This document shows, piece by piece, positions 1 to 12,410 of a stretch of DNA of 32,046 nt. A model generated the notes under the pieces. It ran no database searches. It was not told the DNA's origin and saw only the letters and a program-made list of their open reading frames with translations. Source of the DNA: a virus. Position numbers and translations under genes: made by a program. The stretch's first letter is position 1. The number at the start of each line of letters is the position of its first letter. The stretch is taken from IMG/VR virus record IMGVR_UViG_3300030060_004148, positions 1-32,046 of that record; one strand, given 5' to 3'.

Positions 1-1
1 T

Positions 2-112
2 TTCTCTAATAGGTATTTTAGTTAATTCTATAATCTCACCTTTAGTAGTAGTAGAATTATCACTAGGTGGTTTTTTATCTAAATACTTTTGTATATTAAA
101 ATCTTTTAACAT
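2..112 (-). CDS. 5' end of an unrecognised gene (partial)
   Basis: An ATG on the minus strand at 112-110 opens a frame that stays open to the window edge, giving 37 codons that begin MLKDFNIQKYLDKKPP. The start overlaps the stop codon of the preceding basic-protein gene (TAA at 108-106), the stop/start coupling seen at many junctions here. The visible part is hydrophilic, rich in Lys and Thr, with no signal peptide or recognisable motif. The protein continues beyond the window, so I assign no function. The start is supported by the overlap and the uninterrupted frame, not by homology. Confidence 0.6.
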   Translation of the reverse strand, partial: MLKDFNIQKYLDKKPPSDNSTTTKGEIIELTKIPIRE

Positions 113-510
113 CTCCATCTTCTTCTTGCTGCTAAGCCTCTTTCACTTTTCCAACTTCTTGATCTAGCACAAAACGATTTACGTCTAGCAGCATTTTTCT
201 TTGAAGGATTTTTTTCTGTAACAGCTGTTTGTAGCTTACTACCAGGGTTATTTCTTTTGTATGCTTTAACACCTTTTTCAGTCATACCACCACCTGCGGC
301 ACCACCTTCAGTACTTTTATCTTTAGCTACTTTATTAAAGTTTTTACCTTTACCTATAGTTTTAGGTGGATCAGCATCTGGAAAAGGACTTTCTTCTGTA
401 CGATCTTTACCAGGTGAATTAATTTGTCTACGTACATTGTTATTCATAAACGATCTACGTCTACCGCAACTTGTTACAGGAAAAGGATTATTTCTTTGTA
501 TGTATGCCAT
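106..510 (-). CDS. Small basic phage protein with ARRKSFCAR motif
   Basis: This 134-residue, strongly basic protein has a Gly-rich segment (GGAAGGGMTEKGVKAYKR, about residues 70-87), then NPGSK, a conserved-looking AARRKSFCARSRSW block and a C-terminus ending in RRRWRC. From memory, this Gly-rich, NPGSKL, RRKSFCAR and terminal W-x-C pattern recurs in short proteins of many marine and gut phages whose function is unknown. The paired Cys residues and high Arg/Lys content suggest nucleic-acid binding or a small virion protein, which is inference. The ATG follows the preceding stop by one nucleotide (TAATATG), and the stop overlaps the next start. The N-terminal 65 residues look disordered. Confidence 0.75.
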   Translation of the reverse strand: MAYIQRNNPFPVTSCGRRRSFMNNNVRRQINSPGKDRTEESPFPDADPPKTIGKGKNFNKVAKDKSTEGGAAGGGMTEKGVKAYKRNNPGSKLQTAVTEKNPSKKNAARRKSFCARSRSWKSERGLAARRRWRC

Positions 511-511
511 A

Positions 512-874
512 TTAAAAATCGCTCATTATTATATTATCTATTTCTTCTTGCACTTCTTCTCTAGTTGCTACTAGTGTAAAACTAAGATCGGCTTGAAATC
601 TAGCAACCTCTTCACCATCTTTAAATATTATTATTGTAGGTACAGATGCTATTTTATATTTTTTTTGTGCTTTAACATCTTTACCAACATCTGTGTAACT
701 TATGGTTTTACAGTCTTTTAAACTCATAACCCAAGGCACATCATTAGCTTTATTCCAACCCGCGTTAAATTGTATTACTTTTATTTGGCCAAAAGCAGTG
801 CCAGCAATAAACATTAACAGCATTAATAATACATATACAACGTAATGCCGCCAAACTGTTTGTTTATTTTCCAT
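512..874 (-). CDS. Membrane-anchored thioredoxin-fold protein lacking CxxC
   Basis: A 120-residue protein. Residues about 9-30 form one hydrophobic segment (VVYVLLMLLMFIAGTAFG), either an uncleaved anchor or a signal peptide. The rest reads as a shortened thioredoxin fold: strand KVIQFNAGW, an acidic-strand/helix region, then KYKIASVPTIIIFKDGEEV, which matches the thioredoxin cis-Pro strand and following beta-hairpin. Where thioredoxins have WCxxC, this protein has GWNKAND, so redox catalysis is unlikely; the only Cys is in the DCKT segment. It should face the periplasm. It starts directly after the stop of the coiled-coil membrane gene (TAAATG) and precedes the small basic gene by one nucleotide, so the envelope genes look co-translated. 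The fold call rests on motif reading only. Confidence 0.72.
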   Translation of the reverse strand: MENKQTVWRHYVVYVLLMLLMFIAGTAFGQIKVIQFNAGWNKANDVPWVMSLKDCKTISYTDVGKDVKAQKKYKIASVPTIIIFKDGEEVARFQADLSFTLVATREEVQEEIDNIIMSDF

Positions 875-1159
875 TTATTTTAATTTATCAATTTTTTCTT
901 CTATACGCTTTATATCTTCTTTTATCTCTTTTACATCTTCTTGTGTGCCCATAATGGTATTACGTATCATTTGATCTTTCATATCAAACTCCATACGTGT
1001 AACTTCTGGATCTGGTGGGGCTGGAAGTTCTTTTGCTTCTGCAATATCTGCTTGTAAAGCAAACCACATACCTACTACCGTAGCGATTGCAAAGCCTATA
1101 CCTATAAGTGTTTTTACACTTACTTTAAAACTTGTATCTTCATTTAATTCTTTTGCCAT
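875..1159 (-). CDS. Single-span inner-membrane protein with periplasmic coiled coil
   Basis: A 94-residue protein. A short N-terminus with Lys residues precedes a transmembrane helix at about residues 18-37 (TLIGIGFAIATVVGMWFAL). A Pro-rich linker (ELPAPPDPEV) follows, then a charged heptad-like helix ending KEIKEDIKRIEEKIDKLK. The positive-inside rule predicts an N-in, C-out topology. The layout resembles inner-membrane spanins and some small holin-like phage proteins, but it lacks diagnostic residues. Similar MAKELNEDTSF-starting proteins are, from memory, common in uncultured marine phages. It lies one nucleotide after the outer-membrane barrel-like gene and abuts the thioredoxin-fold gene. 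A role in lysis or envelope modification is plausible but unproven. Confidence 0.72.
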   Translation of the reverse strand: MAKELNEDTSFKVSVKTLIGIGFAIATVVGMWFALQADIAEAKELPAPPDPEVTRMEFDMKDQMIRNTIMGTQEDVKEIKEDIKRIEEKIDKLK

Positions 1160-1160
1160 T

Positions 1161-2261
1161 TTAAAAAATTGTGTAATTTAATCCTAATTTAAAATCGTAC
1201 CACTCACGATTCCAATACTTATTATATTTTCCTTCTACAAAATAACCAAGCTGTTTATTAACCTTTATACCATATATCAAGCCACCACAGTAATCATACC
1301 ATTGACCATCAACGTAATTATGATAACTAAACTCGCTACCATCATCGTAATGATATGGCATTAAACTAGCCCAAGCGTGTAACCATGTATTTTTGTTATA
1401 TTTATAATAATCAAAACCTACAACTAAAGAGTGTTGTATTGTTTTCTTTAGTTCGTTTCTTTTCTTTTGCGTATAGTCAGATAACACTTGTGGTATTACT
1501 ACTGCTTCCCAAACTTCAGCGCTAGTAGCTACCACACTACCACTTGGATCTGTGTATATTGAATTAGCTACATCTACGTTATAACCTTCTTGTAAAGCTA
1601 AATAAGTATAATGTATGTTACCATTACTTAACATCCACTCATCTAAAGCATTGTAACCATATGGTTCTGCAAGACGATGTACTAAACCTACGTTCCAAGA
1701 TAAATGTCTACCATCTCTATGTCTATATCTTTCTGACATCTCAAAATATTTTACATCAGCAAAACCATCTTCAAGATATTCTAGTTTTAAAGCAAAAAAG
1801 TTTACACATAATTCATCAGGACAACCTTCATCAGAGCTAAATCTAATAAAGTGATGTTGGTCCATGTAATTTTTACCTTCTTGTCTTTTGTAATCTACTT
1901 CAAATAAATATTCAACTCCTTTAACTTTACCTACAGTAGCTGCATCACTGTAATTAGATTCCGTACCATCATAAAAAGTCTGTGCTTTATTTTCATAACC
2001 AAATCTAGCTATCTTACGTAAACCTATAGTTAAGTTATAATCATAAGGAGTTGAAATAGTTTGTGTAGACAAGCCGTTGTCAACAGAAAATACGTCAACA
2101 TCAGACAATGATGTACCGCCATTTACAGCAGCATAAAATGTAGAAAATTTTAAAAGCTTCTTAAGTTCTTCATTACCAATGCTTTGTCCACAACAGGTTT
2201 TTGGAACAGAACAAGCTACTAAAAGTATTGTTATTAATATTGTTATTAGTCTTTTCACCAT
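1161..2261 (-). CDS. Exported outer-membrane beta-barrel-like protein (possible lipoprotein)
   Basis: A 366-residue protein beginning with a basic N-terminus and hydrophobic core, then LLVAC, a good lipobox with Cys17, followed by CCGQS, so cleavage by signal peptidase II or I is possible. The mature part is rich in Tyr, Trp and Phe in alternating strands. The last 45 residues form strand pairs such as GGLIYGIKV, LGYFVEGKY and FKLGLNYTIF and end in Phe, the usual outer-membrane barrel signal. An inserted middle region (about 150-190) carries two Cys near DEGCPDELC. No enzymatic motif is visible. It heads the three-gene envelope cluster, 30 bases after the giant virion gene. Possible roles are superinfection exclusion, receptor masking or lysis; the sequence does not decide. 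Confidence 0.75.
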   Translation of the reverse strand: MVKRLITILITILLVACSVPKTCCGQSIGNEELKKLLKFSTFYAAVNGGTSLSDVDVFSVDNGLSTQTISTPYDYNLTIGLRKIARFGYENKAQTFYDGTESNYSDAATVGKVKGVEYLFEVDYKRQEGKNYMDQHHFIRFSSDEGCPDELCVNFFALKLEYLEDGFADVKYFEMSERYRHRDGRHLSWNVGLVHRLAEPYGYNALDEWMLSNGNIHYTYLALQEGYNVDVANSIYTDPSGSVVATSAEVWEAVVIPQVLSDYTQKKRNELKKTIQHSLVVGFDYYKYNKNTWLHAWASLMPYHYDDGSEFSYHNYVDGQWYDYCGGLIYGIKVNKQLGYFVEGKYNKYWNREWYDFKLGLNYTIF

Positions 2262-2291: not shown

Positions 2292-5200
2292 TTACCTTTT
2301 TTTATTTTCAAGCTCTATAATTTTTTTAACTCTATCTTCTTCATATTTAAGAGCTTTTATTTGTTTAGTAGTTAAACCTAAGCTAATTAACTTGTTTACT
2401 TGATCTTTTTTATTCATTTTAAATAAATCTATAGACCTTTGTTCTTTTTCAGAAGGAACATAATTTTCTATAGCTGTCAACGTTGAGTCCATTTTTTTAG
2501 GATCTTTATTATAATAATCCATTATTATATCAACTCTGTCTTTTTCTTTTGGATAATATTTAGGGTTTAATTCTAAATCTTGTATAATTTTAACTTGTTC
2601 TCTTTTGTTTAAATCAAATACTTGTTTAGTTTTTTCTTCTATTAAAATGATTTTCTCTATCTCTTTATCTGTTTTACCAGGATATTCTTTTCTTAATTTT
2701 TGTTTTTGTTCTTCAGCTTTTTCCTTTTCTTTTTGTATTTTTACAGCTTCTTTGTTTTCTTGTCTTACTTGTTTTTTTAGACCTTCAATATCTTTATCTC
2801 TTATACCTAAGTCCCAAGTATTCCAACCTAAAACTAAAGCTATTCTTTGATAAAATTCGTTATTAGAATCAAGTGCGTTATCAATGTTTAATAGTTTATT
2901 TGCTAACCTACCAAGAGGTATATTTGTTACACCTTCTATTACATTTCCAATAGCAGACCAAAGAGGATTATCTAATGTTAAACCTCTCTTCATGTAAATG
3001 TCTTCGTTCCACTTATCAGTTTGTATAGACTGATATATTTTTCTAAGCTTAGAACCTATTGGTGGAGAAAAACTTAATAATGTTAAAAGTGTATATGCAT
3101 GATCAGCTCTAAAACCTTTGTCTTTTTGTTTTTGAAACTCCATGACAGTGTTTTTAACAGTGCTTATTGCTTTACCACCGTAACCAATACCAGACAAAAC
3201 AGTATCTACCATTTGATTTAATATTCTACTTCTTTTAGTTTTAAATCTTTGTCTATCTTCTTCGTCATCGCCTAATGAAGCAAATATAGCTGATTGTAAA
3301 GCTCCAAATATTATACCTTGTATGGCGCCATAATATATTATTTTAGATATATGCGTTTTTGCATCACCTCTACCATTGTATAAGTCTCTAGCAGCTTTAT
3401 TCATTATTCTAGCATACTGCATAGGTGTGTTTTGAAAAGCTAATATTAATCTACCAAGTGGTGACGCTTGTTGTTGTGATATTAAATCAGGTCTTGCAGA
3501 CTGCTGTGCTACTTCTGTTAACTCTTGAAAATCTAAAAACGCTTGAGCTTCTGCTTCTCGCTGTGTCATGCCTTGTTTCATTAAAGATTTTATTCTATTT
3601 CTATAAAACGTAGCACCACCACTAGCAATAGCAAAACTATCTGCTATTTGTGTAGGTAAAAAACCTTTTTTAAGCAACCAAGCTATAGCAGCTTTAGCTT
3701 TATTATCAGCGCCAGCTACAGCATCAGAAAGCTCAGCTTCATTAATACCTCTTTGATTACCAGCTCTTCTTTGTTTTAAGAAGTCAGAGTTAAATAAAAA
3801 CGTAAAGTCTTTCCAGTACTGTGGTTGGTTAGCAAAAGCTTGACCTGCTTTTAAAATATTATTATCACTCCAATTTATATAGTTAACAGCTGATATAGTT
3901 TGTAACAAAGCAGATCTCATATTAAAGAACATGATAGCACCAACAGAGTTGTTTGTCCAGTTCATAAAGTTACTAACTAGTCTACTACTACCTGTAGGTC
4001 TACTTCTACCAGTCTTCATACGATATAACATATCTTCTAAAGCTTCTCTAAATTTACTACCGTATATTGCTTGTATCTTATTTAAATTTTGTGGACTAAA
4101 TATTATATCTGCATTTTGTTGCCACTCTTCTAAAAACTTAGATCTTAAATCACCAATTGCACCATCACTTAATAAATCAGATTTTATATTTTCAGCTAAC
4201 CAATATTCACTAGGCGCACCATAACCTTCTTTTCTTTTTGATACTAAAGCTAAAGTTTCTGCAAAAGCTTTTAGTTCTGCATCGTTATTAACAGTGCTAG
4301 ATAAAAGATTTAAATCTTTTTTTGATAAACCAGGTATTTCAAAACCAAACTTATTCCATAAATAAACTCTTATAGCCTGATCAAACGTAAAGTTACTATT
4401 ACCTATTTTTTTATTTAGTTTGTTTTTAACATTTTTAAATTCTTTAAATAAATTTTCAAGATCCTCTGCTGATTTTTGTCTAGAAGTATTTAACTCTCTT
4501 ATACCTCTAGCAAAAGGATCAATTAAAGTTTTCTTAAAAAATTCAAACTGTTGCTCACCTAATTTACCTTTAGCTAAAAAGTTATATAACAAACCAACAA
4601 AATCTTGAGCTGATGGTGGTATAATAGACTGATATTTAGTTTTATTACCTCTTAGTCTAGCTTGAGCTTCAGAAAAATTTTTAAAAGCCTCAACACCTGT
4701 TGTCTGTTGTATTATTCTATTAAAATCTTTATTTATATCTTTACTAAACTTTACTTTAGCTTGTTGAACTTTTGACTTAACATCAAATTGATCTAACATA
4801 TTTTTAACCGCTTGTACGTTTTGTAAAGCATCATCTGCAAAATAAAAATCGTTATAACCTTCAGTAACTTTACCAGCTATCCAAAGTGCTTTTGCTTCAC
4901 TAGTACTATTACCCAAACCAGTAATATTTTTTAAAGGTATATTTAAACCATTAGCTCTTAAAAATCTAAATATAGGCTTAGCAGAGTCAGCAGGTCTAGC
5001 TGTTAATACAAACATATTTTCAGGCCCAAACTTTTTTTGTAGTTTTAGTGCTTTTTCAAACAACGGTGCTTTTTTAGCACCAACAACTTTACTAAACTCT
5101 GAAAAATCAAACGTAAAGCCTTGGTCTAATAAAGCTGAGCCGTTTTTAGCAAACTCTTCAGCATTTATTTTAGTAATTGTACGATCAGGAGCTATAACTA

Positions 5201-8200
5201 TTACCTCTGATTTAGTAGTAGCTAAAGTGTCATCAAAGTCTAAAACCGTAATACCTCTAGGTTTTTTTAACTGTGGTTTTATTGATTTAACAAATTCTTT
5301 ACCTCTTTGTTTTTGAGCTTGAAATTTATCAAACGCAGATCTTGAAAACAAAACAGCTTCATCTATTTTATTAATATCTTCAATATTATATTTACTAAAA
5401 CGATACTCACCTACTTTGTTTATGTTATATTTGCTAGCTACACTAACACTATTATCTTTTACTAAAACTAAATCTTCAGTGTTTAACTTGTAATCTAGAT
5501 TACTAGCAGTTGCTTTATTAAACATTCTTTTAACAAAAGTATCTTTAGCTAAATCAAAATCTTTTAATGTATTTATTTTTTTAACTGCATCTAAAGCTGT
5601 TGCATCTGTTTTAAGTATAACGCTTTGTACATAAACATCATCTCTTAATATATTATCAAGTGTTTGCTTAAAATTACCTTCAGCAATAGCCTCCATTAAA
5701 GTTTCTATAACATCTATATTAGCTACAGCATGTTCAAATTTTATTTTTCCTTTTGGTAAACCTATAGCTTTTTTATCTATCCACTTAATAGGAGCACCTG
5801 TTCTTGATGGGTGTGAAGTATCGTTTATAGAAGACAAAGCAAGATGATAAGCTGAAGTAAGTAAAGTTTTACTTCTTTTTTTAGCTGGTAATTTTTGATT
5901 AGCAATATGAGCGTCATTTATTAAGTTCCAAAAAGCTAAAAAATTATATCTACCAGTTTCGTTTATTTCATCTAAAGATTTTTTACCTTCATAAAACTCC
6001 GCATCCATACGCGGGTACCTTTTAATACCAACATCTTTGTTTTTTACTCTAGAGCCCTGCATAACAAAAATATCTTTAAAACCATCTTGTCGTGATACTG
6101 CTCTCATGTACTGTTCAAACTCTACGTTTTTAGTACCACTAATCCACGTATATAAATCTGCAGCCCGTAATACACCAGGATTATTACTACTTATAGTAAT
6201 AGCATCATCAATATACGCATAAAGAGCATCTGTATTACCATCAATGCCTGTGTAATCAAAACCATATTTCTCAGCGTATTTTTTTACCTTAGTACGAGTT
6301 ATTTCATTAGAAGCTTCTTTACTAAACATTACTTCAGGTGTACCATCTTTAATATTATTAATAGTTTGTTGATAATCAGGTGATGCGTTTTCTATCTGTT
6401 TTCTAACAGCTTGGTTAGACATCATCTTACCAGTTAAGTTTGCTAATGATAAAACTCTAGCAGATGTATTTCTATCTGTACGATCTGGCTTTCCGTTTAT
6501 AATACCAAAGACTTCTAAAAAATCTTTTCTATTTATTTTGTTTTTTACTTGAATAGCTAAACCTGCTTTTGTACCTGTTTTAGCCATTTTAGCTCTATCG
6601 GTTTTAGTATAAAAAGCATCTAATATAGTTTTAGGTACACCTGTAGAAGTACCGCCCGTAGTGCTACCTTCTGGCAACATTGATATTAATATATCTGCAT
6701 TTTTATTTATAAACATTTGAGCAGCTTGTAGCTCACTTTTAGTTATATTAGCGTTTGTTATAAGCTTTTTAGGTAATATACCAAATAGCTCACCAGTTAT
6801 ATCAGGTACTAAGTTTTTTAACTTTTTAAATGTTAAGTTTTTAATATCTAAATTTGGAAACTGTTTTTTAATAGCATCGTTAACTTTGTTCTTAACACCT
6901 AGCCTTTCTGATAATATAATTTTCTTTTTAGGTTTTTTTGTTGGCGTGGTAACCTCTTCAGCAGCAATACCGGTAGCTTCTGTAACATCTTGTGTAAACT
7001 CTTCACCTAGAACACGTCTAGAAGCCTCTATAGCTCTTAGAGGTAAGTTTTGATTTATGTAAGCAGCTAAAGGTACACCTGAATCTGGTTTGTATGTTCT
7101 AACTAAATCTATTATACCACCTTTACCTATTTCTATTTCACTAGTTAAAAGCTCTCTATCAAAATTAGGTGCGTTTCTACGTTTTTCAACTATTCTACCA
7201 ACTATAGGTTTAAACTCTTCTATAATTTCAAAAATACCATCTACACCTTTTTCGTTGTATATAGCTTGTACTTTATCAGAAGCTTCTTTAGATAACTGTG
7301 GTAGTTGATCTTCACTAATTTCTATACCAAGTCTTTGAAGTGCTTTTGCATATTGTTGACTACCGTATTTTATTTGACCACCTATTCTAGCACCTTTAAG
7401 CATAGTACGCTTTAAACCTTTACTTAATCTTTTAGTTTCAATAGCTTTATTATAATCTCTAATAAAATTCATTACATCTCTACCAGTTTTAAATGTAACT
7501 CTTTTACCGCCTCTAGAAAAAGCTCTTCTAAGCATATCACCAATTTTAGTGGCGTTTGTTTCATTGTAAATTATTTCACCTTTTATTAAAGCGTCTGAAA
7601 AAAGATTTAACGTTTCTTCAGCGGCAACAACATCACCTTGTTGTGCTTGATAACTAATTAATCTTCTTTGAAAATCAGAGTTTTTTATACCTTTAGGGTT
7701 CATGTTCATTAACTGTTGCTGTAATGCTCTACCAACAGCTAATTTAAGGTTTGGATTATTATTAAAAGTTTTATTTAAAAACCTGTGTAAAAATTCGTGT
7801 GCCGCTACATTTTCAGCTCCAACATCTAAACTAGTTTCTTTGTTTATAATAATAGATTGTCTACCATCTACAGTAGGTGTAGTAAAACCATGTGTTATAT
7901 CAAAATCACTTTTGTTTTCCTGTACCATTTGATTTATTTGGTCAAATGACATTTCACCAAAATCAAAATTGTTTAAATCTTTTAAAGATAAAGTAGTGTT
8001 TGTTTTTTTATCTATATAAACTCTTCTACCTGTTGTAGCATCTCTTATAACTTGAACGTTATAATCAGACAGTAATCTGTTAAGAGCATCTATTTCGTAA
8101 ATCTCTGCTGCTTCTCCAGATGTTTCTGCTTCTATAATATCTGTCCCTGTGTCAACGTCTTCAGAAAACTTTTTAATAGCATCTAACTTGTCTTTGTAAC

Positions 8201-11200
8201 CTTGTTTAGTTTTTTCTTTATTAATACTTTTTATAACAGGATCTAGTATTTTGTTTTTTTGATTCTGAAGTTTATTTCTTTCAGCTTGGAGATTAATAAC
8301 ATCTTGCTTGTCTTGCTTGTTATTCTTATCACCGTTTTTCATTTTTTCTTCTATCTGCTGATCTAAATCTTCTATTTTCTCAGTTAAGTCTTCAACTTTT
8401 TTAACATTATCTTTTGATAATCTATTAACAGCTTCTACCTCTATAGCGCTTCTCATATCCTCAATAACATCTATTAAGTTTTTAGAATCAAGGTTGTTTT
8501 CAAAACCAGTACCTTCTAACTCGTTAAATATAGCATCAAAAGTAATAAAGTCATTACTTATTTCTATTTTAAGATCTTTTAGCTTACCTTCTTTTTTTGC
8601 TATTTTAACAGCTTCTAAAGCATCTGCTCCATTAGAATAACTATCTAAACCAACTACATAAACAGGATCTTTTACACCATTATAAAGTTTGTAAGCTTTA
8701 TTACCAGCACCAAACATTATTTGCATAGCCGCTGTTTGTATAACAACTTGTTGTGTAAAATCAGAGTCTATACCATCAGTAAAACCTCTACCATCAATAA
8801 GATTTTGTAATGGTTGAGCCATAAATTCTTCTGCTATTTCAGGTAGTATACCGTTCCAACCACCAGCTCTTTGAACTCTAGCTAAAAAATTAGCAGACGC
8901 AGGATTTAAACCTAATTTTCTAGCATATCTACCTAGCGTCATACGTTTTAACCACATAGGATTACCTATAAGACTTTTGCTTATCGTATTTACTCCACCT
9001 GGTATATACATACCAAATCTTTCTGTAGCATATTCTACCCAAGTACTACCAAATGCCTTAACAAAAGCTTCGTCCCAACCTTTATCTTGTTCATATATTG
9101 GATTACCATCAGCATCGTCTCCAACATAAAAACCTAATTTGTCTATTTCTAACGAAATATTTTCACCATCGCTAGATAAACTCCAAGCCATCTCAGGTGT
9201 CATACGCTCTATAGTTTGTTCGTATACCATAGAACTACCACCTATAGTTGTTAGCGTTGCTGATTTAAGTAAAAACTCATAAGTTTCAGCTGCGCCTTTT
9301 TGAATTTTTAAAGCACCCGGTGTAATATTTTTTATTTTAGCAAATCTATCTAAAACATCTTGCGATCTACTAAGCAAAGAGCCACTTTTTGTAGCTACTG
9401 AAGTAAATCTATTAACAAACTTACCAATACCTCTACCTGCAATCATTTCTATCATAAATCTAAAACTATCTACAGTACCAGCACCAGCGTTATAAGCGTT
9501 AGATATTTCACTTATTTTAGATTCAAGCTTAGCAGACTCGTGCCAAAGCATTAAAGTTTCTTTTTCTTGATCAGTTAGTTCATCTGCTGGTTTTTCTAAA
9601 AGTTTTCTAATATGGTTTTGTATATTACCATTTCTAATACCAGCATATATAGGTACTAAGTCTGCAAAATCTTTACTAAACATACCATCAAAATATCTTC
9701 CAACAGCTGTTGAAGACATAAACTCTGGTGACTCTAGTATTTCTTTTGCATATCTTAATGATTCTTTTTCTTCATCTGATAAGTCATCTAACTTTGATAG
9801 TTCATTAACTAATTGTTCTGCTTGATACTTCATTGCAGCAGCTGTTGGTCTATTTTCTTTATCTAAAGAAGTTTTTTGATATGCTTTAAAGTAAAACTCA
9901 TCTCTGTAAGCATCTAAATCTGATATACCAGAAGCCTTAAGACTGTGAGAAAGCCTCGCCCACTCTACGTCAATAGCTTTTTGTTTTACTTTATAACCAT
10001 AACCATGTATGTTTTGATCATGTAATCTTTTAAATATTTCAGTATATTGATCGTCTGATATTAATTGTTCAGCCCCGTTTGTTTTGTTTTTGTAAGAATC
10101 TTCTATAAATTTAGACTGAAAGTCATAGTAAATAGTTTCTAACTCTTTTGTTTTTTTATTTATAAACTCACCAACATATTGCTCAGCGAGCTCATTATAC
10201 CTATCATTGTATTTTTTATTAAAAGGATCTACTAAATCTGATCTAAGCTTTTCACGGTCTTTAAGTACAGCTTTGTAATGTGCGTTATAAGCTTCTTGTA
10301 ACCTTTTATTAAATTCAGTTTCAAACTCTTCATTTGAATCAAAATCAATGTCTCCTCTTTCATAAGCAGTGACTAATTGATTTTCTATTTCTTCAGCTAA
10401 ACTTTGTAATATCTCTTCGTCTTCAGCTTCAAATTGCTGTTTTAAACCATTTACTTTCTGTTCTATACTATTTAGCTCTTCACTAAACTCACTGTTTAAA
10501 ATATTTTCTATATCTTCTTTGTGAGGTTGTAATTTTTCTTCTAGCTCACTGTTGAAATTTCTATCAAACTCTAATTGTTTATTTAACCACTCTTCACCAA
10601 ATGCTTTACTATCAATTATTCTAGTATTATTTTCTAAAATTTGTTGATTTATATCTACAAAAGTCATTGGTTGGTTATACTCAGTCTCAGAATAAACCTC
10701 TTTATCTAACTCTTTATCTAACTCTTTTAACTTATCTTGATTATCAGCATTAGTTATTTCATCACCTTTAGCTAAAGTCCCTTCACCTATTACATCACCA
10801 CCGGTACCTTTTGCATAATCATACTCGTCACCTGTTGCTTTATAGTAAACATCTTCAAGTACTTTTTTACCTCTAGTATAGTCATCATACATAAACTCAT
10901 AAGCTTCAAACGTACCTATACTATTAGCGTTTACTAATCTACCTTCTTTGTCATATTCAGGCGGTATAAAATCTGTATATTTTTCATAATAATTTAATTT
11001 TCCTGAGCCAGGAGGCCATATAAAAGTATCATAATTAAAATTAAAATCTTTAGTATTTACGTCACTTGAAACAAGCTGTGCTCTTTTAGTACCACTAGTC
11101 CAATAATCGAATTCACTTTTATAAACACCTATACCTCTTTGATAGCTAACTTTTTTTATACCACCTCTTTCGTTACCTATTTTTATAGTTCTTTGACCAT

Positions 11201-12410
11201 CTGAATATTTACTACCTGTAACGATCTCGCTAGTGTTAGGTTGTATTTTAGTAAGATAATCCTCTAAGTTTTCTGAGCCTTTCATATCTAAAACCCAGTC
11301 ATTCCAGTTAAATACAACTTGGTCTAAAGCAATTTTTTTAGCGTCTGCTTTGTTTTGTGTAAGAAAATTTACATAGTCTGTATATGCTTTAGTCCACATG
11401 CCTTCAAAATCTTCACTTTCTACAGTTGGTAAATCTATTTTAAGAGTTTCTTCTTTATTACCGCTATAGTCGTACTTATGTATTTTAAGCACATCATCAC
11501 CGTCTAGCACTGTCCAATCAAACTCATAATAAAAACCAGCAGCGTCAACACCATTTTCGTTGACATCATTAGTTCTCATTTTTTTATACTCGTTATGAAA
11601 AGCGTTTAATTGGTTTGCTATATATTTTTCAACATTATTAACTTGAGCAACAGATATATTTCTAAATGTGTTAAAGTCTACAGCACCATTAAGCTCTTCG
11701 CTATGCGTAACACTTATACCATTCATGTTATAAGAATAGTTACCTTGCCCATCATTAAAATCATCACTAAAAACACTTTTAGATTTTCTAGCTGCATCAA
11801 CTTTCATATTATACTCTAAAATACCCTGCTGCTGTGCAGGTAGAATTTTAGTATTATATACCATTTCTGGATTATCTGTTAGTAAATTCCAATTGTCAGG
11901 GTTATTATAGTCAATACCAGAATAGTATGAATTAACTAGAGGATCAGACTGTATTTGATTAATTCTATTTCTTAAATTTTTTATCGCTTCTTCTTCCTCT
12001 TTTTCTTGTTCTTTTCTTTCTCTTTCTAGCCGTTGCTCTCTTGTTATTGTTTCGTATAAATAGTCTTTGTCTTCTTCAACAGTACCTAATGTAAAACTAA
12101 CATCACCACCAGGGCTTTCACCTACATAATTTGAGTCTTCATAAATCTTACTATCAGTGTCAACGCTAATATCTTCACCGCTTTCTTCAATAACTTTACG
12201 GACATTAGACATGTCAATATCAGTTTGTGTTGTAGGACCAGAAATAGGTTCTATACCTGGTACTGATTGTGAAGTGGTTTTTTTACTTTTTGCATCAAGC
12301 AAACTTTTCCTAATACGCTCAAGCTGTTCTTCAGTGTATTTACCAGTGGCCCTATACCTTTCAAGTACTTTTTCTATTTCTTCTATTTCTGTAGAAAGTA
12401 TTTCAGACAT
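2292..12410 (-). CDS. Giant polyvalent virion protein (zincin, sigma-like, HAD-like domains)
   Basis: A 3372-residue protein, probably a cargo protein ejected into the cell, judging by its size, position after the internal virion genes and domain mix. Residues about 1-300 are acidic and low-complexity, and 600-780 and 1330-1390 look coiled-coil. At 1538-1542 HEFLH, followed by AAEE near 1598, suggests a gluzincin-type metalloprotease. Residues 1760-1805 resemble sigma-70 region 2 (GGIIDLVRTYKPDSGVPLAA). At 2391-2530, DFDDT, LTARP (2469-2473) and FADDA (D2526, D2527) mark a HAD-like hydrolase. A region at 3015-3050 (KIIYYGAIQGIIFGALQSAI) is hydrophobic and could insert in the membrane, and the last 150 residues are Lys/Glu-rich helix. 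Such fusions belong to the 'polyvalent protein' class known from phages. I see no RNA-polymerase DxDxD motif. It starts one nucleotide after the upstream stop. Virion location is inference. Confidence 0.82.
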   Translation of the reverse strand: MSEILSTEIEEIEKVLERYRATGKYTEEQLERIRKSLLDAKSKKTTSQSVPGIEPISGPTTQTDIDMSNVRKVIEESGEDISVDTDSKIYEDSNYVGESPGGDVSFTLGTVEEDKDYLYETITREQRLERERKEQEKEEEEAIKNLRNRINQIQSDPLVNSYYSGIDYNNPDNWNLLTDNPEMVYNTKILPAQQQGILEYNMKVDAARKSKSVFSDDFNDGQGNYSYNMNGISVTHSEELNGAVDFNTFRNISVAQVNNVEKYIANQLNAFHNEYKKMRTNDVNENGVDAAGFYYEFDWTVLDGDDVLKIHKYDYSGNKEETLKIDLPTVESEDFEGMWTKAYTDYVNFLTQNKADAKKIALDQVVFNWNDWVLDMKGSENLEDYLTKIQPNTSEIVTGSKYSDGQRTIKIGNERGGIKKVSYQRGIGVYKSEFDYWTSGTKRAQLVSSDVNTKDFNFNYDTFIWPPGSGKLNYYEKYTDFIPPEYDKEGRLVNANSIGTFEAYEFMYDDYTRGKKVLEDVYYKATGDEYDYAKGTGGDVIGEGTLAKGDEITNADNQDKLKELDKELDKEVYSETEYNQPMTFVDINQQILENNTRIIDSKAFGEEWLNKQLEFDRNFNSELEEKLQPHKEDIENILNSEFSEELNSIEQKVNGLKQQFEAEDEEILQSLAEEIENQLVTAYERGDIDFDSNEEFETEFNKRLQEAYNAHYKAVLKDREKLRSDLVDPFNKKYNDRYNELAEQYVGEFINKKTKELETIYYDFQSKFIEDSYKNKTNGAEQLISDDQYTEIFKRLHDQNIHGYGYKVKQKAIDVEWARLSHSLKASGISDLDAYRDEFYFKAYQKTSLDKENRPTAAAMKYQAEQLVNELSKLDDLSDEEKESLRYAKEILESPEFMSSTAVGRYFDGMFSKDFADLVPIYAGIRNGNIQNHIRKLLEKPADELTDQEKETLMLWHESAKLESKISEISNAYNAGAGTVDSFRFMIEMIAGRGIGKFVNRFTSVATKSGSLLSRSQDVLDRFAKIKNITPGALKIQKGAAETYEFLLKSATLTTIGGSSMVYEQTIERMTPEMAWSLSSDGENISLEIDKLGFYVGDDADGNPIYEQDKGWDEAFVKAFGSTWVEYATERFGMYIPGGVNTISKSLIGNPMWLKRMTLGRYARKLGLNPASANFLARVQRAGGWNGILPEIAEEFMAQPLQNLIDGRGFTDGIDSDFTQQVVIQTAAMQIMFGAGNKAYKLYNGVKDPVYVVGLDSYSNGADALEAVKIAKKEGKLKDLKIEISNDFITFDAIFNELEGTGFENNLDSKNLIDVIEDMRSAIEVEAVNRLSKDNVKKVEDLTEKIEDLDQQIEEKMKNGDKNNKQDKQDVINLQAERNKLQNQKNKILDPVIKSINKEKTKQGYKDKLDAIKKFSEDVDTGTDIIEAETSGEAAEIYEIDALNRLLSDYNVQVIRDATTGRRVYIDKKTNTTLSLKDLNNFDFGEMSFDQINQMVQENKSDFDITHGFTTPTVDGRQSIIINKETSLDVGAENVAAHEFLHRFLNKTFNNNPNLKLAVGRALQQQLMNMNPKGIKNSDFQRRLISYQAQQGDVVAAEETLNLFSDALIKGEIIYNETNATKIGDMLRRAFSRGGKRVTFKTGRDVMNFIRDYNKAIETKRLSKGLKRTMLKGARIGGQIKYGSQQYAKALQRLGIEISEDQLPQLSKEASDKVQAIYNEKGVDGIFEIIEEFKPIVGRIVEKRRNAPNFDRELLTSEIEIGKGGIIDLVRTYKPDSGVPLAAYINQNLPLRAIEASRRVLGEEFTQDVTEATGIAAEEVTTPTKKPKKKIILSERLGVKNKVNDAIKKQFPNLDIKNLTFKKLKNLVPDITGELFGILPKKLITNANITKSELQAAQMFINKNADILISMLPEGSTTGGTSTGVPKTILDAFYTKTDRAKMAKTGTKAGLAIQVKNKINRKDFLEVFGIINGKPDRTDRNTSARVLSLANLTGKMMSNQAVRKQIENASPDYQQTINNIKDGTPEVMFSKEASNEITRTKVKKYAEKYGFDYTGIDGNTDALYAYIDDAITISSNNPGVLRAADLYTWISGTKNVEFEQYMRAVSRQDGFKDIFVMQGSRVKNKDVGIKRYPRMDAEFYEGKKSLDEINETGRYNFLAFWNLINDAHIANQKLPAKKRSKTLLTSAYHLALSSINDTSHPSRTGAPIKWIDKKAIGLPKGKIKFEHAVANIDVIETLMEAIAEGNFKQTLDNILRDDVYVQSVILKTDATALDAVKKINTLKDFDLAKDTFVKRMFNKATASNLDYKLNTEDLVLVKDNSVSVASKYNINKVGEYRFSKYNIEDINKIDEAVLFSRSAFDKFQAQKQRGKEFVKSIKPQLKKPRGITVLDFDDTLATTKSEVIVIAPDRTITKINAEEFAKNGSALLDQGFTFDFSEFSKVVGAKKAPLFEKALKLQKKFGPENMFVLTARPADSAKPIFRFLRANGLNIPLKNITGLGNSTSEAKALWIAGKVTEGYNDFYFADDALQNVQAVKNMLDQFDVKSKVQQAKVKFSKDINKDFNRIIQQTTGVEAFKNFSEAQARLRGNKTKYQSIIPPSAQDFVGLLYNFLAKGKLGEQQFEFFKKTLIDPFARGIRELNTSRQKSAEDLENLFKEFKNVKNKLNKKIGNSNFTFDQAIRVYLWNKFGFEIPGLSKKDLNLLSSTVNNDAELKAFAETLALVSKRKEGYGAPSEYWLAENIKSDLLSDGAIGDLRSKFLEEWQQNADIIFSPQNLNKIQAIYGSKFREALEDMLYRMKTGRSRPTGSSRLVSNFMNWTNNSVGAIMFFNMRSALLQTISAVNYINWSDNNILKAGQAFANQPQYWKDFTFLFNSDFLKQRRAGNQRGINEAELSDAVAGADNKAKAAIAWLLKKGFLPTQIADSFAIASGGATFYRNRIKSLMKQGMTQREAEAQAFLDFQELTEVAQQSARPDLISQQQASPLGRLILAFQNTPMQYARIMNKAARDLYNGRGDAKTHISKIIYYGAIQGIIFGALQSAIFASLGDDEEDRQRFKTKRSRILNQMVDTVLSGIGYGGKAISTVKNTVMEFQKQKDKGFRADHAYTLLTLLSFSPPIGSKLRKIYQSIQTDKWNEDIYMKRGLTLDNPLWSAIGNVIEGVTNIPLGRLANKLLNIDNALDSNNEFYQRIALVLGWNTWDLGIRDKDIEGLKKQVRQENKEAVKIQKEKEKAEEQKQKLRKEYPGKTDKEIEKIILIEEKTKQVFDLNKREQVKIIQDLELNPKYYPKEKDRVDIIMDYYNKDPKKMDSTLTAIENYVPSEKEQRSIDLFKMNKKDQVNKLISLGLTTKQIKALKYEEDRVKKIIELENKKR

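Follow-up and report, generated by a model that had tools for sequence, protein, structure and literature searches.

This study concerns three adjoining genes at one end of a 32,046-nucleotide stretch of viral DNA (hereafter the window; bases 1-32046 of the 37,674-base viral record IMGVR_UViG_3300030060_004148), which, together with a fourth gene found beside them in related phages, make up a cassette that stands about an even chance of exporting a phage protein and anchoring it to the outside of infected marine Bacteroidota cells. Its members are a large cargo gene (BIG), an outer-membrane barrel gene (OMP), a coiled-coil gene (CC) and a gene for a thioredoxin fold (TRX), and, as read from the sequenced loci, the four travel together in fixed arrangements across unrelated phages. 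A broader proposal, to which we give somewhat less than even weight, is that phages widely exploit the type IX secretion system (T9SS) of their hosts, displaying a cargo via a viral carrier barrel, a trans-envelope partner and a redox-dead thioredoxin, the whole being a unit exchanged between T4-like and podovirus-like phages of marine Bacteroidota. If true, this would show phage remodelling of abundant marine Bacteroidota surfaces late in infection; the analysis also puts names to four protein families, most of them unannotated. Throughout, hosts are inferred, confidence in the AlphaFold2 models is moderate or low, and inspection by eye was the basis for calling signal peptides and transmembrane segments.

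In the window, all three genes lie on the minus strand: OMP (1161..2261, 366 aa) is predicted from its ORF (open reading frame), AlphaFold2 and Foldseek to encode an exported outer-membrane beta-barrel; CC (875..1159, 94 aa) would encode a protein that crosses the membrane once, near its N-terminus, and has its coiled-coil-like C-terminus in the periplasm; and TRX (512..874, 120 aa) a putatively exported thioredoxin fold in which W40-N41-x-x-N44 replaces WCxxC and cis-Pro79 is retained. A preliminary description of this DNA had reported three tandem genes 0-1 nt apart, and its coordinates and its account of the genes were right: the ORFs exist as described, spaced by 1 and 0 nt, and hundreds of viral-contig homologues and strong protein conservation mark them as real genes rather than chance ORFs. 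Homologues were found in 427 viral-contig stretches for OMP, at least 581 for CC and at least 527 for TRX, and the trio itself in hundreds of uncultivated viral contigs. It was absent from 50,697 deposited phage records searched by tblastn with all three window proteins plus divergent CC and TRX sequences, the TRX queries meeting other thioredoxins only; in a similar search with BIG, S-CAM3 and Marine virus AG-345-P14 alone were matched, and only through the repeats. Linkage was counted over 202 loci after duplicate removal. CC and TRX lie no more than 40 nt apart in 180/186 distinct loci, usually overlapping by 1-4 nt, which bears out the conserved co-occurrence in uncultivated marine phages that had been proposed as a check, and TRX adjoins CC in all 140 distinct CC loci with enough flank. 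OMP usually sits just upstream of CC and in some phages downstream, and because its position varies in this way, OMP is more loosely attached to the module than CC and TRX, which form a tight pair. Of the module records, six have a T4-type gp23 capsid gene and thirteen others a portal of phrog_6547, the family of the window phage's own portal; the two are never found in one record, so the module spans two unrelated backbones, one P22-portal podovirus-like and the other T4-like. The viral contigs are fragments, so absences from them are weak evidence. Strong selection is implied by how widely the module occurs, with hundreds of marine viral contigs and two unrelated types of phage carrying it.

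The trio described at the outset is thus linked as claimed, and yet incomplete, for the fourth gene, BIG, with its T9SS-type cargo product, had been missed. BIG encodes a large protein, putatively exported through Sec, whose repeats are of GCTDPxAxNYNP type and whose cysteines number 39 at the median; in full-length versions a signal peptide stands out by eye. It stands beside the trio in 122 of the 123 loci with enough flank (87/88 of the giant-gene, podovirus-type loci and 35/35 of the others), a count that comes from overlapping scans in which some contigs were counted more than once and the repeat was found by pattern. Where all four genes can be seen, three arrangements recur, OMP-CC-TRX-BIG (86), CC-TRX-BIG-OMP (28) and BIG-OMP-CC-TRX (26), and in 30 distinct loci, though not in all arrangements, the BIG and OMP genes overlap by 4 nt. 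In the nearest relatives BIG lies 1.0-1.8 kb beyond the trio, on its strand: the closest of them, L244, whose OMP is 97% identical, has it at L244:13937-15826, 1.8 kb past TRX, and a second example is L246:5994-8339. The phage of the window therefore presumably carries BIG beyond window base 1, past the end of the record (1..105, minus strand).

The link to type IX secretion comes from the C-terminus of BIG. In one large group the protein ends in a T9SS type A sorting domain (TIGR04183/PF18962) above the curated cut-off; TIGR04183 passes that cut-off in 19/47 viral records, with L172 and L175 scoring 35-43 bits against a cut-off of 23. In most giant-gene phages BIG ends in a different short tail (ITDLLGRP...YIYDDGTVEKKLIK), and both tail types occur among phages of one backbone, as if they were interchangeable. 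An hhalign comparison of the two tails gave a probability of 94.9%, but a good part of the alignment runs over the shared segment that precedes the tail, and this does not prove the alternative tail to be a type A domain. A profile of the alternative tail matches many ORFs of a Flavobacteriales metagenome-assembled genome (MAG), G053 (best E=2.4e-14), and two of these, read at full length, are secreted proteins with a signal peptide and the tail at the C-terminus; the same genome encodes the T9SS translocon SprA (2384 bits). The host link from this genome goes no further than suggestive because the MAG also contains a contig of a module phage. OMP itself is, by profile search, phage-specific and not a host gene: against 84,980 bacterial and archaeal genomes its profile matched eight contigs, of which two, examined throughout, are phage and the others carry trio or giant-protein genes, and in 100 relatives of MAG G053 it matched that MAG alone, in one place, leaving 99/100 without OMP. 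Five contigs with the barrel gene (L256, L258, L259, L260 and L261) were seen in MAGs labelled Nitrosopelagicus, Maricaulis and Woesearchaeota; these are probably misbinned phage contigs.

In the mechanism that we favour, BIG would pass through Sec to the periplasm and then via the host SprA translocon to the surface, with OMP, whose gene in many loci overlaps the end of BIG, as its dedicated outer-membrane carrier or anchor, analogous to SprF/PorP for type B cargo. Anchored in the inner membrane, CC, together with the redox-dead, periplasmic TRX, would tether the barrel and cargo across the periplasmic space or guide them through it, and BIG on display would alter the infected cell surface, e.g. 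by blocking adsorption or changing adhesion. The closest known precedent is in Flavobacterium johnsoniae, where the genes of type B T9SS substrates have that of a matching barrel shuttle next to them and, for some substrates, an anchor gene as well (PMC12618676). In SprB/SprF and other pairs of type B cargo and PorP/SprF-like shuttle in Flavobacterium (PMC12618676, PMC9143113), as in the phage cassette, a large surface protein gene adjoins its own barrel gene and sometimes a third, periplasmic anchor gene. The phage version differs on several counts: its genes are phage-borne, the cargo tail is type A or the alternative type rather than type B, profile searches do not assign the barrel to the PorP/SprF family, and a coiled-coil membrane protein accompanies it together with a redox-dead thioredoxin. 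Since OMP lies outside that family, the claim is limited to OMP probably working like PorP/SprF, by analogy, and not being one of them. Phage-encoded T9SS cargo has also been described, in Cryophage (PMC7468147) and in crAss-BACON phages (PMC6949934), and in the portions of those reports available to us the resemblance lies in phage products with T9SS sorting domains, while the genes concerned are flexible or single and conserved barrel, coiled-coil and thioredoxin partners are not described there. The four-gene cassette was not described in the literature searched, which left out many subscription papers and all preprints; relative to that literature, single phage genes with sorting domains are known, and what is new is a conserved phage cassette that appears to pair T9SS cargo with its own barrel, a membrane anchor and a redox-dead thioredoxin.

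Several points weigh against this proposal. OMP matches no PorP/SprF or PorV model (Pfam to E=1, NCBIfam to E=0.1), and with its 12 predicted strands it is without the periplasmic C-tail bearing the SprF-type Cys-x-Cys (twin-cysteine) motif. The usual carrier of type A cargo is the shared PorV, so the need for a dedicated one is not obvious. A curated sorting domain is lacking from many podovirus BIG proteins, L004 and L221 giving no match to it. BIG lies outside the window's own record and is inferred for this phage; several phages have endolysin-type genes near the module, an arrangement that would suit a lysis role too; and the interaction, localization and phenotype of the module are predicted, from sequences, models and analogies.

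As for the barrel, the earlier characterization of OMP as an outer-membrane, barrel-like protein agrees with the AlphaFold2 model, which has 12 strands (pLDDT 70, pTM 0.65) and by Foldseek resembles porin and autotransporter barrels. A helical insert at residues 205-271 is predicted confidently, and the protein ends on its last strand (..GLNYTIF). No family match was found in Pfam (to E=1), PHROG or NCBIfam (to E=0.1), and a profile of OMP found nothing among PDB sequences. The protein is strongly conserved across phages, including the long segments between strands, and this bears on a reading that we consider unlikely, in which OMP is itself the active surface decoy or blocker, masking receptors or excluding superinfecting phages, with BIG as an adhesin inherited alongside it. 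Phage outer-membrane barrels do exist, and the genes are late, exported, accessory-like and common to both phage types, as such a role would have it; however, conservation of this kind is unexpected for a surface in an arms race, and CC, TRX and BIG would be left unexplained. The OMP N-terminus (..LLVACSVPKTCCGQ..) holds a possible lipobox and vicinal cysteines. A C..PK.CC.Q motif at this end is present in 85/157 giant-gene OMP loci and in 6/56 other loci, a lipobox-like N-terminus is confined to part of the family, and lipidation or disulfide linking through the motif was rejected as a family-wide feature. The disulfide link of SprF/PorG to the GldK track (PMC12635249) offers a comparison, in that T9SS and gliding outer-membrane barrels there also have paired cysteines, but those of OMP are N-terminal rather than in a C-tail and are absent in many members; a link of OMP to the GldK track is speculation.

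CC is nearly invariant over much of its length in the alignment and, as judged from its sequence, has a single hydrophobic segment near the N-terminus, at about residues 15-35, and a C-terminus that is charged and heptad-like; Pfam, PHROG and NCBIfam gave weak matches only. Such a topology fits an inner-membrane spanin subunit, and it is the starting point for a lysis accessory role, which we judge to be distinctly improbable: OMP in the outer membrane, TRX in between and CC in the inner membrane would form a spanin-like bridge that disrupts the outer membrane after holin and endolysin have acted. Gene positions also speak for it. In the T4-like L172 and L257 a peptidoglycan (PG)-binding endolysin-type gene begins 16-30 nt after TRX, in L187 an M15 peptidase and a GTA-type holin lie within about 1.4 kb after TRX, and most podovirus-like relatives that carry an M15 gene have it on the strand of CC, some 3-11 kb farther downstream. 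The module nevertheless stays intact while the spacing between it and the lysis genes, which are separate from it, ranges from 16 nt to many kb, and late genes cluster anyway. Two-component spanins (Rz/Rz1) have a small inner-membrane protein with a periplasmic coiled-coil, as CC is predicted to be, but the outer-membrane partner here is a 366-aa barrel and not a short lipoprotein, and a thioredoxin and a secreted cargo come in addition; neither a large barrel nor a thioredoxin fold is a spanin feature, the Rz-like PHROG match of CC is weak (E=0.2), and BIG, the constant partner, is left without a role, as is its sorting domain.

The lysis genes of the relatives bear on this role as well. The preliminary description saw no holin, which holds for the window; farther along the record, at 35808-36230 and so beyond the window, there is a GTA_holin_3TM-like gene, which scores 24.1 bits where the cut-off is 24.8. 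Homologues of it occur in 40/50 relatives' records, an M15 peptidase in 28/50, and a PG-binding endolysin-type gene in two T4-like ones. A separate complete lysis cassette, which had been named as evidence against a lysis function, is thus found in part, as separate M15 or PG-binding endolysin-type genes and holin-like genes in relatives, and because of these a lysis or spanin role is less likely. Among the functions first suggested, then, envelope remodelling is well supported, by the co-occurrence and the predicted barrel, while the spanin-like one is weakened; a bridge between the membranes is plausible, and superinfection exclusion may be a function as well. A small protein with an HExxH-like motif (MAHEMVHLKD) and weak metallopeptidase matches is encoded at 36206-36604 of the record (L002:16206-16604), overlapping the holin-like gene. 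DUF5675 genes, with weak Tlde1 similarity, were seen near the module in phages without an M15 match (L230:8793-9269, L254:6963-7460 and others), where they are a possible alternative wall-active gene.

TRX was first described as a thioredoxin fold without CxxC, and both halves of that description were confirmed. The family profile matches PDB thioredoxins (E=3.8e-7), P79, the cis-proline, is invariant, and Foldseek supports the fold from an AlphaFold2 model that is itself weak (pLDDT 66). The W-N-x-x-N site is present in 185/186 distinct TRX proteins (183 by pattern and 2 by reading the sequences), the remaining one having N-x-x-H. Relative to the thioredoxin family PF00085, whose Pfam cut-off the window protein does not reach, TRX shares the fold, the cis-proline and a matching second half, but it has Asn for both catalytic cysteines and is exported. 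The signal peptide ends just before a conserved Gln, and since relatives with a short N-terminus share that end point, the mature protein is probably soluble. Given the strict NxxN, a redox role at that site is excluded, and a chaperone or adaptor role would fit. In the proposed export cassette TRX may be a non-catalytic folding helper for the disulfide-rich BIG, comparable to the b domains of protein disulfide isomerase. The most divergent TRX (L187:5272-5640) reads FWAEWNKSN, with a canonical FWAEW start and the NxxN kept; it has the best thioredoxin score (TIGR01068 E=2.7e-11) despite NxxN and is a possible evolutionary intermediate. Two module phages (L168:1075-1401 and L169:1083-1397) also encode, on the opposite strand, a thioredoxin with a normal WCGPC.

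Judged by its terminase, portal and virion proteins, the window phage belongs among the podovirus-like phages of Flavobacteriia. Its portal is 42-54% identical to those of Maribacter phage Panino, elemoviruses and a Manatee Spring podovirus. On the minus strand the order is a 3372-aa late gene of giant virion type (2292-12410), OMP, CC, TRX and a DUF6321 gene, with intergenic gaps of 30, 1, 0 and 1 nt. The first of these gaps, and the position of OMP near the giant protein gene in most podovirus-like relatives, suggest a further reading, very improbable in our estimation, in which the proteins are virion components, e.g. ejected or tail-associated, that reach the envelope on infection, their genes following the giant one. 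All four proteins, however, bear export or membrane signals, and the reading was rejected as the main explanation on finding the module in T4-like phages without the giant gene. Visible by eye in the 3372-aa protein are AAHEFLHRF, which resembles HExxH, DFDDTLA, a HAD-like motif, and a stretch that looks like part of a sigma factor; its only Pfam match, of the large-polyvalent-protein kind, is weak. Directly downstream of TRX, the DUF6321 gene (106..510, minus strand) encodes a small basic protein and is a frequent neighbour of the trio (85 ORF matches among the loci), not a constant member of the module; in many marine phages the domain makes up a small gene of its own, and several large PHROG families have it at their end.
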